This document shows, piece after piece, positions 4,610 to 28,968 of a stretch of DNA of 35,919 nt. Source of the stretch: Thermoflexales bacterium (GTDB lineage Bacteria > Chloroflexota > Anaerolineae > J036 > Brachytrichaceae). Below the pieces are notes generated by a model, which did no database searches, was not told the origin of the DNA, and saw only the letters and a list, made by a program, of their open reading frames with translations. Location: the NCBI GenBank assembly GCA_025056965.1, contig JANWVF010000150.1, forward strand, positions 1 through 35,919. Reading direction: 5' to 3'. Numbering within the stretch: position 1 is the stretch's first letter; the number at the start of each line of letters is the position of its first letter. A program made the position numbers and the translations under genes.

Positions 4610-6612
4610 ACCGAGCGCTGCGCCTCGATCCAAATCGCTTCCGAGTCAAACTCGTCCAGCCTCAGCTCCAGCCCATCGCGCATGAGCGCCGCGCCGGTCA
4701 TCGTCCCCAGGTCGCCGCGGTCCTCGGCGCGGGCGCGGTAAACGGTCGTCGCTTCCAAGCCGCGCGGGCGTATGGTGCGCTGCGTCGGGCCGCCCATGGC
4801 GCGGAACACCATCACCACGCTGCGCGATCGGTCGGGCGAGACGGCCTGAATGGCGTCCCAGCCCCAGCCCCGTCCCTCCACGTTGTAGCGCGGGGCAAGG
4901 AGGTGGATCACTTTGGCATCGCGCGTCAAGGTTCGCAGCTCCTTGTATCGGGCAATGGCCGCGCGCGTCTCGGCGACTTGCTGCGGCGTCCATTCGGTGA
5001 TCCGCTGCATCAGGATTAGCGGCCCGCCGAAGATGGCGCTGCGCAGCGTATAGCGATTCGGATCGTCCTGCATGTAGCGCACGCTGTAACGCAGCGAGAA
5101 TGGGAAGGACGCGCCGTAGATGCCCTGCCGGGTCGCGTAGGTGGCGATGTTGTCCACGGTGATGCTGGTGTGGTACAGGCGTGCCATCTTGTAGGTCAGC
5201 ATGCAGCCGCCGTCCTCGCAGTTCTCTAGCGTCACGTGCGGCCGCTGCCGGCGGATGGTGGCGATTAGGCAGTCCAGGCCGCGCTCGGAGTTGGCATAGT
5301 TGCTATCGCCCGGCGCGTGCGTGTGGTCATTGCGCCCACATCGCTTCACCATGTCTTCCCCGTCTTGGATGATGTAATTCACGCCCTCTTCGTCAATCAG
5401 CCGCATGATCTCGCCGGTCAACCATTCGCGGCACGGGACATGGCCCAGGCACAGCGGCGCGGCGCCGAAGTAGTCGTCGCCGGTGTGGATCAGCCACTCG
5501 GGATGCGCTTGTGCGGCCGGCGCATCCAAGCTCATCTGCGCCAGCGCCATATGCACGCCGAAGCGCATGCCCAGTGCGGCGCAACGCTCGCTCAGCGGGC
5601 GCAAACCGCGCGGGAACTTATTCGGATCGGGCCGCCAGTCGCCGATGCGGCGCGCCCAGCCTAAATCCATCACCACGGCCTCGATCCCCAACTCGGCGCA
5701 TCGTTCGATGGCTGCCAGCTGCTGCGCCTCGTGAATGTCCTGCCCATAACCCCAAGAGTTGTATTGCGCCCATGGGTAGCGCTCGTCCGGCGCCGGCGGA
5801 TACACGTGAGCTTCGGCAAAGCGCTGGGTGACGTAACCTGCCTCGTCCCAGTCGCCCAAGAAGCGCCCGATGAAACAGGCTGGCACGTCAAACGTTTGCC
5901 CGGGCGCGAGTGCGTGTGCCAGGTCGTCAATCGTGCTGCGCAGAAAGGTGTGGCCCTCCCGTGCCCAGGCAAACAATCGGCTCTTGCCGTTGAACTCGAT
6001 GCCCAGCACCAGTCCGATGTCACTGCGCGCCACGTCGGGCTCGTCGGGCGAGTCCAAGCCAGCGCGCAGCGCTGCCCATGCGCAACTGCTCGGCGCCCAG
6101 TAATGCGCGCCGAACGATCCCATGCGGATTTCGTGCGCCGCGCGCCCGGGGACGATCTGCACCTTGTGCAAAGCGAACTTGTCCGGCCGGTAGTTCCAAC
6201 TGAACTGCTCGACGTGGAATAGGTTGTTGCGCCCATCTAACGGCGCGCGCATGTTCAGGATGTCGCAGCCGGTAACCTGCACCGGCTCATCGCTCAGGTT
6301 GATCAGCTCGGCCCACATGCGCACGAACGGGTGACCGGCGAAAGCCTGCACATGCTGAATGAGTTGCAGGCGCCCATCGGCGCTCGGAACGCGCAGGGTC
6401 AGCGTGAGCGTCCCATCGGCAGGCGCGCCGAACCGGACGTCGGCTGCAGCGCTCAACTGCAATCGTTGACCGCCGACGGTGATGCGGCTGAGCGGGGACG
6501 GCGAGACGTCGAGTCCGGGATGGGTCGCGCTCGTCATCTGCCATGTTAATTCGCCGTCGGCCAAGGCGACGCGACACGCAACGGTAGGAGTCTCAAGCAT
6601 CCATTCTGACAT
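4606..6612 (-). CDS. GH36-type alpha-galactosidase (putative)
   Basis: The 668-residue protein has the GH36 layout: an N-terminal beta-sandwich (about 1-240), a (beta/alpha)8 barrel and a C-terminal beta domain. Barrel motifs are VVMDLGWARRIGDWRPD then KFPRGL, YIIQDGEDMV at the usual nucleophile strand, and LENCEDGGCMLTYKMARLYH then VDNIA around the acid/base. The nucleophile strand is normally KWDxN; here the Asp is kept but its surroundings differ, so substrate specificity is uncertain. It would release terminal alpha-galactose or a related sugar. No signal peptide is seen, so it acts on imported oligosaccharides. ATG 6612 is chosen because homology starts there; no RBS is seen, but CACAAT lies 9 bases upstream. 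galK at 12.6-13.7 kb could use the galactose released. Confidence 0.75.
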   Translation of the reverse strand: MSEWMLETPTVACRVALADGELTWQMTSATHPGLDVSPSPLSRITVGGQRLQLSAAADVRFGAPADGTLTLTLRVPSADGRLQLIQHVQAFAGHPFVRMWAELINLSDEPVQVTGCDILNMRAPLDGRNNLFHVEQFSWNYRPDKFALHKVQIVPGRAAHEIRMGSFGAHYWAPSSCAWAALRAGLDSPDEPDVARSDIGLVLGIEFNGKSRLFAWAREGHTFLRSTIDDLAHALAPGQTFDVPACFIGRFLGDWDEAGYVTQRFAEAHVYPPAPDERYPWAQYNSWGYGQDIHEAQQLAAIERCAELGIEAVVMDLGWARRIGDWRPDPNKFPRGLRPLSERCAALGMRFGVHMALAQMSLDAPAAQAHPEWLIHTGDDYFGAAPLCLGHVPCREWLTGEIMRLIDEEGVNYIIQDGEDMVKRCGRNDHTHAPGDSNYANSERGLDCLIATIRRQRPHVTLENCEDGGCMLTYKMARLYHTSITVDNIATYATRQGIYGASFPFSLRYSVRYMQDDPNRYTLRSAIFGGPLILMQRITEWTPQQVAETRAAIARYKELRTLTRDAKVIHLLAPRYNVEGRGWGWDAIQAVSPDRSRSVVMVFRAMGGPTQRTIRPRGLEATTVYRARAEDRGDLGTMTGAALMRDGLELRLDEFDSEAIWIEAQRSV

Positions 6613-22648: not shown

Positions 22649-23484
22649 AGCTGGCCATCCTGAGCGACATCCACGGCAACTATCCGGCGTTGCTCAATGT
22701 CATCGCCCACGTCGAGGCGTGGCAGCCCGACATCGTCGCCGTTGCCGGTGATACCGTCAATCGCGGGCCGCGCTCGGCGGATTGTCTGAACCTGATGCTC
22801 ACCAAAGTGCGCGAGCTCGGCTGGCTCACCATCATCGGCAACCACGAGGAGTACGTGATCGCCCAGGCCAAGCCCGACTGTCCGACGCGCGGGCCGCAGG
22901 CCGAGATCCAGCGTGCCTCACGCTGGACGTACGAGCGCTTGAATCGCAACGTGTCGGCGCTTGAGGCGATGCCATTCGCGCGTGACCTACGCGGGCCGGA
23001 CGGCGGCGATGTGCGCATCGCGCATGGCTCGATGCTCGGCACGCGCGACGGCGTGTATCCTCAGACGACCGACGACGAGCTTGCGCTCAAGCTCGGCCGT
23101 CCGCTGCCGAAGGTATTCTGCGTCGGCCATACTCACCAACCTCTTACCCGCGCCCTGGACGGCGTGTTGATCGTCAACGCCGGCTCAGTTGGGTTGCCGT
23201 TCGATGGCGATTGGCGGTCGAGTTACGCGCAGGTGACTTACTGCAAAGGGGAGTGGCGCGCTCACATCGTGCGTTTGGAATACGACCGGCAGCAGGCGGA
23301 GCGTGATTTCTACGAGACTGGCTTCCTCGACGAGGGCGGGCCGTTGGCGCGCGTCATGCTGCGCGAGCTTCAGATCGCCCGCGGGCTGATTTATAGTTGG
23401 GCGAAGGAATTCGAGCAGCCGGTGTTGGATGGCCAAATTGGCATGGAACAGTCCGTTGAACGCTTTCTGCGACAGTATTGCTAG
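22645..23484 (+). CDS. Calcineurin-like metallophosphoesterase
   Basis: The 279-residue protein has the metal-binding motifs of the family in order: ILSDIHGNYPALL (D-x-H) at the N-terminus, AGDTVNRGP, IGNHEEYV, a His in RIAHGSML and CVGHTHQPL near residue 160. After the core, INAGSVGLPFDGD matches YfcE/MJ0936-type phosphodiesterases that cleave small phosphodiesters or nucleotides. A C-terminal helical extension of about 60 residues follows. It starts inside the MazG stop (ATGA), so the two are co-translated; a shared nucleotide clean-up role is plausible but not shown. Confidence 0.88.
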   Translation: MKLAILSDIHGNYPALLNVIAHVEAWQPDIVAVAGDTVNRGPRSADCLNLMLTKVRELGWLTIIGNHEEYVIAQAKPDCPTRGPQAEIQRASRWTYERLNRNVSALEAMPFARDLRGPDGGDVRIAHGSMLGTRDGVYPQTTDDELALKLGRPLPKVFCVGHTHQPLTRALDGVLIVNAGSVGLPFDGDWRSSYAQVTYCKGEWRAHIVRLEYDRQQAERDFYETGFLDEGGPLARVMLRELQIARGLIYSWAKEFEQPVLDGQIGMEQSVERFLRQYC

Positions 23485-23535
23485 ATGTGCAGCTCGTGCC
23501 GAGCGCGGCGCCGGCCTATGAGCTAGCCCTTGCGT

Positions 23536-24207
23536 ATGACGACCAGGATATCCGACATCTTCGTCACGGTGGACATCGTCATCTTCACCCTCCGCGACGA
23601 CGATTTACAGGTGTTGCTGGTGAAGCGCAAGACGCCGCCCTTCGAGGGGTGCTGGGCGATCCCGGGTGGCTTCGTGCAGCACGATGAATCACTTGAGGAC
23701 GCTGCCGCGCGCGTGCTGTTCGATGAAGCGGGCGTGCGCGGCGTGCATATCGAGCAGCTCTATACCTTCGGCCGGCTCGGCCGCGACCCGCGCGGGCGCA
23801 TGGTGACCGTAGCCTACTTCGCGCTCGTTCCGGCGCCCCTGGCGCTGCACGCCGGCAACAGCACCAGCGACGCGCAATGGCAATCCGTCTATCACCTGCC
23901 CGAGATGGCCTTCGATCACGCCGAGATCGTTCATTACGCACTCAAGCGACTGCGCTACAAGCTGGAATACACGGCGGCCGGCTTTCGGTTGTTGCCCAAA
24001 GCCTTCACGCTCAGCCAGCTGCAGAAGGCCTACGAGACGGTGCTCGGCGAGCGCTTGGACAAGCGCAACTTTCGCCGCCGCATTTTGCAGGCGCAGGTGA
24101 TCGAAGAGACGGGCGAGATGCAGAGCGGTGAAGGCCGCCCCGCCAAGCTGTATCGTTACCGCGAGGACGCCGTGGCCGAGGTGAAGGCACGGCGGTTGTT
24201 CCCCTAA
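23536..24207 (+). CDS. NrtR-like Nudix-domain transcriptional regulator
   Basis: The 223-residue protein has an N-terminal Nudix fold (about 8-140) and a C-terminal winged helix (about 150-215; FTLSQLQKAYETVLGERLD then RNFRRRIL and GRPAKLYRY). This is the layout of NrtR, the ADP-ribose-responsive repressor of NAD metabolism. The Nudix box reads GGFVQHDESLEDAA then RVLFDEAG; the catalytic R-E-U-x-E-E core has become R-V-L-F-D-E, so hydrolase activity is probably lost and a sensor role favoured. ATG 23536 is chosen over TTG 23530; no RBS is seen. No NAD genes and no recognisable NrtR box are close by. It is 51 bases past the phosphoesterase gene and convergent with the transporter operon. Confidence 0.82.
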   Translation: MTTRISDIFVTVDIVIFTLRDDDLQVLLVKRKTPPFEGCWAIPGGFVQHDESLEDAAARVLFDEAGVRGVHIEQLYTFGRLGRDPRGRMVTVAYFALVPAPLALHAGNSTSDAQWQSVYHLPEMAFDHAEIVHYALKRLRYKLEYTAAGFRLLPKAFTLSQLQKAYETVLGERLDKRNFRRRILQAQVIEETGEMQSGEGRPAKLYRYREDAVAEVKARRLFP

Positions 24208-27617: not shown

Positions 27618-27909
27618 CGTTACTCCTTGATTTGCAAGCGATTTGAGAATGGCCAACACACAAGCGCAACATCCCCATGCTCGCGTGCGCCTCTCGCTTG
27701 CGCCGGAGTTACGATGGACTCGAATCTTCCGCGGCAGGGTTGAGGACGCCCGCGGCAGCGGGGTCGTGTAAATGGCGCAACACGCGCGCCGAGGAGAGAT
27801 CAGTTCAACGACCGTGCATCCAACGCATCCTCTCAACCTCCCTGCGAAAGCTCTCTTTTGCCTAACGCCTGGCCGGATGATAACGCATCGGCTCGGGTAA
27901 GATGGGGAT
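27618..27909. other. Divergent intergenic region between the transporter operon and selD
   Basis: This 292-base spacer is the longest gap in the window and must hold promoters for both operons. I see no convincing -35/-10 pair, no tRNA and no known riboswitch. It does hold a long-range imperfect inverted repeat: 27734-27749 against 27825-27845, with GCAGGG, TTGAG and GGA blocks pairing around small bulges. Small hairpins lie inside, such as CGTGT/ACACG at 27764-27783. It could be a structured leader for either side. Confidence 0.35.
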
Positions 27910-28962
27910 GTGACGACTGCCAGGAAGATCAAGCTGACGTCGCTCGCGTCGTGCGCGGGTTGAGCCGGCAAGCTGAGTCCTGAGACTCTGGCCGCCGTGT
28001 TGCGTCCGCTTCAGAATCGCTTTCGGCCCGAGGACTACCCCGACTTGTTGGTCGGCCTCGGCCGACCGGACGATGCTGCCGTGTATCGTCTGTCGGATCA
28101 GCACGCTATCGTTCAGACCGTGGACTTCTTCACGCCGGTCGTGGACGATCCCTACGCATACGGTGCAATCGCAGCGGCCAACGCAATGAGCGATATTTAC
28201 GCCATGGGCGGTGAAGTGCTCTTCGCGCTCAACATCGCGGCGCTGCCGGAAGATCTGCCTGCCGAGGTGGTGAGCGAGATTCTGCGCGGCGGCGCGGACA
28301 AGGTGGCCGAAGCCGGCGCCGTCATCGCCGGTGGCCATACCATCAAGGACAAAGAGCCTAAATACGGCCTGTGCGTCACCGGCATCATCAACCCGTCCGA
28401 GGTGATGGCCAAGGGCGGTGCGCGGCCGGGTGACCTCCTCGTGCTGACCAAGCCGCTCGGCGTCGGCGTCGTCACCACGGCCATCAAGCGCGACCTGGCC
28501 GATCCGGCGCACGTTGACGCGGCGATCGCCAGCATGTTGCGCCTGAACCGCAACGCGGCTCGTGCCGCGCGCGCCTCGGGCGCACGGGGAGGCACCGACA
28601 TCACCGGCTTCGGCTTGCTGGGGCACGCGCTGGAGATGGCCGACGCTGCCGGCGCATGCTTCCGCTTTTCGTGGGGTGCGCTCCCCTTCTTGCCCGGCGC
28701 GCTAGAACATGGCCAGGACTGGGTGTTCCCGGGTGGCGCGGCGACCAACGAAGCGACGTACCGCCACGCCGTGCAGTTCGATGCCGCGTTAGAAAGCTGG
28801 CAGCGCATGATGCTCTTTGATCCGGAAACCAGCGGCGGCTTACTCATCGCCATCGCCGCGTCGAAGGCCGATGCGCTCGTGCGCGAGCTACGCGCCGGCG
28901 GCGACGCGGCGTTCATCGTCGGCGAGGTGGTCGCGGGCAGCGGGATCATCGTGACGAGGTGA
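27910..28962 (+). CDS. selD: Selenide, water dikinase (SelD) with in-frame UGA read as selenocysteine
   Basis: SelD makes selenophosphate from selenide and ATP, the selenium donor for Sec-tRNA and selenouridine. From GTG 27910 the frame gives a 350-residue protein of normal length if TGA 27961-27963 (codon 18) is read as Sec. The N-terminus then reads KLTSLASCAG-Sec-AGKLSPETL, matching the family pattern in which a catalytic Cys/Sec is followed three residues later by an essential Lys (here Lys21). Later motifs are normal: TVDFFTPVVDDPY, AANAMSDIYAMGG, VIAGGHTIKD, GTDITGFGLLGHA and DPETSGGLL. Upstream the frame closes at TAA 27898, so GTG 27910 is the only usual start. A start at TTG 27997 would remove the catalytic site. 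Confidence 0.9.
27964..27993 (+). ncRNA. Candidate bacterial SECIS hairpin within selD mRNA
   Basis: Directly after the UGA, GAGTC (27975-27979) and GACTC (27984-27988) form a 5-base stem with a CTGA loop; GGC 27967-27969 and GCC 27991-27993 can extend it past an asymmetric internal loop. The loop begins 17 bases after the UGA, within the range usual for bacterial SECIS elements. The G is third in the loop, not in the first two positions as I recall for the common consensus, so the exact fold is uncertain. Confidence 0.4.
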
Positions 28963-28968
28963 TGAGCG

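Follow-up and report, generated by a model that had tools for sequence, protein, structure and literature searches.

The selD gene of the window (the whole stretch of 35,919 nucleotides that was analysed) almost certainly encodes the selenocysteine (Sec) form of selenophosphate synthetase, with the UGA at codon 18 predicted to be decoded as Sec. Read in this way, selD, the gene for selenide, water dikinase, occupies positions 27910–28962 of the forward strand, starts with GTG and encodes 350 residues, the 18th of which is the predicted Sec.

The selD reading frame and active site

The selD frame runs from GTG 27910 to the TGA at 28960–28962 with a single internal TGA (27961–27963, forward strand), and the nearest upstream in-frame stop is the TAA at 27898–27900 on the same strand. 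The residues flanking the internal TGA are VTTARKIKLTSLASCAG-U-AGKLSPETLAAVL. Both the frame, open upstream through one TGA to GTG 27910 with TAA 27898 beyond, and these residues agree with what the initial annotation had described. The start column is common to all nine genus genomes; the codon there is GTG in the window, and one relative in the genus (L107) has ATG. One detail had to be corrected: the codon at 27997–27999 (forward strand), reported as TTG, is GTG, and TTG is the next codon, at 28000. This GTG, which lies inside the candidate SECIS loop, is the start chosen by a plain, mechanical ORF caller, and the result is a truncated ORF of 321 residues, as had been foreseen for standard callers.

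Translated through the TGA, SelD matches TIGR00476 with 373.1 bits against a cut-off of 125, over profile positions 1–310 of 311, and aligns over almost its whole length with SelD proteins of known structure. The TGA falls in the column of the catalytic Cys in PDB 3u0o, which we take to be E. coli SelD, where GCGCK is aligned with U-A-G-K. A conserved Lys codon (27970–27972, forward strand) lies three residues beyond the Sec and supplies the K of the UxxK motif, as the C/UxxK pattern of the enzyme demands; the alignment to the E. coli protein thus bears out the earlier placement of the TGA exactly at the catalytic Cys/Sec site.

Conservation of the in-frame TGA

Of the relatives that are named, Candidatus Roseilinea and uncultured Anaerolineae of the Chloroflexota are the closest. 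SelD with exactly one TGA is found in 9/9 genomes of the genus (Candidatus Roseilinea-like) and, at the level of the family, in all 21 SelD-bearing genomes among the 28 searched; most SelD genes from other members of the class also have one TGA. The observation is confirmed as real and not due to chance because every one of the nine genus genomes has the TGA in the same surroundings. The translated N-termini of the relatives have the TGA at the same site, and a check for the different frame or frameshift that the initial annotation had raised against its own reading found the TGA conserved instead.

Were the TGA a true stop, selD would be a pseudogene, or a truncated SelD would be expressed from GTG 27997, the very start from which the plain caller obtains its ORF. 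Such a protein would, however, be without the catalytic residue and the Lys, and protein-level conservation in nine genomes covers both the 17 codons that precede the TGA and the 11 that separate it from the GTG. Codons 2–29 lie upstream of the point at which the caller starts; within the genus their pairwise differences comprise 189 synonymous and 78 non-synonymous changes, and 163 of the 267 are at third positions, which shows selection on the N-terminus. The TGA is moreover kept across the class, and we regard a true stop as extremely improbable. Because the window comes from a fragmented draft assembly of 165 contigs, one might suspect that TGC or TGT, the codons for Cys, had become TGA through a mistake in sequencing or assembly. 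The identical TGA occurs, however, in genomes of many origins that were assembled independently of one another; the relatives refute such an error, and its probability is vanishingly small.

In a sample of the phylum, SelD scored over the cut-off in 315 of 400 genomes. Among the best ~150 of these 315 matches, 19 are without an in-frame stop and the remainder have one TGA, which makes the UGA form the most frequent type of SelD in the listed part of the phylum sample. The four phylum genomes without the TGA that were inspected have Cys at that residue, not Trp or Gly. selD thereby shows the combination that marks a bacterial selenoprotein, a conserved in-frame UGA together with Cys homologues. 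As a separate observation, two Cys-type SelD proteins, L132 (genome G253) and L134 (genome G223), lie in open frames of 743–750 residues and probably represent the known kind with an N-terminal fusion.

Sec decoding machinery

The initial annotation held that the organism has selA, selB and selC, and a search of the genome from which the window comes (3.13 Mb, completeness 99.4%) found all three. selA scores 526 bits (cut-off 268), selB 320 bits (cut-off 242) and the tRNA-Sec with anticodon UCA 74 bits (cut-off 47), and the three genes reside on three separate contigs, away from selD. Inspection of the sequence on either side of each gene revealed no other evident selenoprotein gene.

This machinery also bears on two other readings of TGA: reassignment to an amino acid such as Trp or Gly, and translation as Cys by means of an opal-decoding tRNA-Cys. 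Such codes and tRNAs occur in other bacteria. Against their operating here, selD itself ends in a tandem TGA TGA (28960–28965, forward strand), where TGA remains a stop codon, the genome holds tRNA-Sec(UCA), selA and selB, and the sampled relatives without the TGA have Cys. Reassignment is on these grounds highly improbable, and decoding of the UGA as Sec is the reading that we adopt.

In the family, full-length selA is present in none of the seven genomes that are without SelD; six of the seven have no selA match above background, and the other, 67% complete, has a piece of selA at a contig edge. Three family genomes with a UGA-type selD (G019, G021 and G026; completeness 92, 91 and 82%) gave no selA over the cut-off, which probably reflects assembly gaps. 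The pattern of SelD and selA in the family suggests that the Sec trait is gained or lost as a whole. We also observed four small genomes of this family (G010, G013, G017 and G022; 2.3–2.7 Mb) that are without SelD and SelA and have lost the whole Sec trait.

Candidate SECIS hairpins

The codons following the UGA contain two hairpins. The candidate bacterial SECIS hairpin, at 27990–28007 (forward strand), has six positions on each side of a six-nucleotide loop, CGUGUU (27996–28001); in the window it forms five pairs with one internal C-U mismatch, and 32 nucleotides separate the UGA from the loop. The published bacterial SECIS model places the element 16–37 nucleotides after the UGA, with a loop of 3–9 nucleotides that has a G in its first two places, a stem of 4–16 bp and an energy of −7.5 kcal/mol or lower. 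The spacing, loop and stem of the hairpin lie within this model, the hairpin having been chosen after the sequences had been viewed. It shares with the bacterial SECIS consensus the six-nucleotide loop with G second and then U, the spacing and the location in the coding region, and it differs in that the stem in the window is broken by the mismatch and the energy is weaker than that of the model. Taken as a stand-alone segment of 25 nucleotides, the hairpin has an energy of −5.6 kcal/mol in the window, compared with −10.8 to −11.7 kcal/mol in genus relatives without the mismatch.

For the window alone the hairpin is weak, as 24% of synonymous shuffles do equally well. Across the UGA-type selD genes (n = 85), 4.93 of the 6 pairs are formed, against 3.79 ± 0.09 in synonymous shuffles, and pairing at the same place in Cys-type selD genes (n = 8) is not above that of shuffles. 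Among close relatives 94% of cells pair, sliding the partner destroys the pairing, and in the pairs at alignment columns 32–45 and 33–44 both partners are replaced (C-G by G-U and C-G by U-A). Among 32 wider relatives, such compensatory changes are seen in five of seven pairs and none of 500 shuffles reaches the covariation score. The pairing in relatives points to selection on the RNA; the counts of pair changes are inflated by sequence relatedness, and both the hairpin and the set of sequences in each register were picked after inspection.

The second hairpin (27975–27988, forward strand) lies between the UGA and the SECIS candidate and has 5 bp, GAGUC/GACUC, closed by a loop of CUGA. When the window's codons are shuffled synonymously, a run of 5 bp arises there in 0.35% of cases, and in the 85 UGA-type genes the mean run is 3.24, against 2.20 ± 0.09 in shuffles. 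It is kept in some members of the genus and not in all. Both hairpins exceed shuffles at the level of the group, and judged from sequence we prefer 27990–28007 as the putative SECIS, with the better fit to the published model, because the loop of 27975–27988 has no G in its first two places and its conservation in the genus is incomplete. The hairpin at 27975–27988 was rejected as the SECIS on these two counts and is possibly an alternative or accessory element. At fourfold sites of codons 2–31, variation is 0.17–0.23, compared with a typical 0.3, and is below that in most of selD, as would be expected of an overlapping RNA signal; low variation is also common near gene starts.

Other users of selenium

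In the window's genome, neither the formate dehydrogenase alpha subunit (FdhA) nor selenouridine synthase gave a match over the cut-off; Zhang et al. recorded no selenouridine trait in Chloroflexi (PMC1794560). Because of these two negative searches, we considered whether SelD might be the sole selenoprotein and make selenophosphate only for itself. This idea was rejected on finding two AhpC/TSA-type genes with an in-frame TGA. The first, L149, is a SelL-related redox gene (FGUIFC) on the reverse strand of contig C57 of the window's genome, G000 (positions 23365–23829), and matches NF040769 with 148.5 bits (cut-off 120). In 9/9 genus genomes the protein has the motif FGU(V/I)FC, which in most of them is followed by a strong hairpin with the loop GGU. 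The second, L150, is a SelL-like gene with two in-frame TGA codons (LAUHYU) on the forward strand of contig C154 of G000 (positions 4934–5263); read with Cys, it reaches 113.9 bits against NF040769, just under the cut-off of 120. This paralogue occurs in six genus genomes, as LAUHYU in the window's genome and as LAUHYC in five relatives, and the second TGA is either a second Sec in the species of the window or a sequence error. SelD and the SelL-like redox proteins are the likely users of the Sec trait.

Discussion

In the mechanism that we propose, SelB carrying Sec-tRNA(UCA) would decode the UGA at 27961, aided by a hairpin in the codons that follow, 27990–28007 being the candidate for SelB binding. 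SelD would convert selenide and ATP to selenophosphate, which SelA would use to make Sec-tRNA, and SelD would therefore supply selenium to its own active site and to other selenoproteins, among them at least two SelL-like redox proteins. To our knowledge, this self-feeding circularity is common to all Sec-type SelD. The UGA could in addition act as a selenium sensor, such that under scarce selenium translation would end at codon 17 and SelD would fall, and a shorter form of the protein, free of Sec, might be initiated at the GTG in the SECIS loop; we consider this role unlikely.

A review counts the family "selenophosphate synthetase, UxxK" as a verified one and ranks it second among prokaryotic selenoprotein families in how widely it occurs (PMC13188914), and Sec-SelD made up 19% of SelD genes in a survey of 223 genomes (PMC4561486). 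The initial annotation was right that Sec-SelD is known in other bacteria, and overstated the case in suggesting that it might be unrecorded in this lineage: a count made in 2006 already credited Chloroflexi with three selenoprotein families (PMC1794560), and the UGA form predominates among the phylum matches listed. A partial literature search returned no paper that names Sec-SelD in Roseilinea. Sec-SelD is a textbook, well-known kind of selenoprotein, and the find is correct and unsurprising to a specialist. Its value lies in annotation, as plain gene calling cuts off 29 codons at the start of selD, active site included, here and in many related Chloroflexota. The genus, moreover, would decode Sec without a recognisable FdhA or selenouridine synthase, as judged from the window's own genome.

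Compared with known systems, the E. coli SelD of 3u0o is the same enzyme, aligned over residues 5–343, and has Cys where the SelD of the window has its predicted Sec. The structures 2yye and 2zod are presumably those of SelD from Aquifex, which we take to be a thermophile of another phylum; this protein has the same N-terminal motif and is aligned over residues 7–343, and its deposited sequence likewise has Cys at the Sec position. With Sec-type SelD/SPS2 (TIGR00476, UxxK), the SelD of the window shares the catalytic Sec, the Lys three residues on, the length and the domain match, and nothing of substance separates the two beyond the host lineage.
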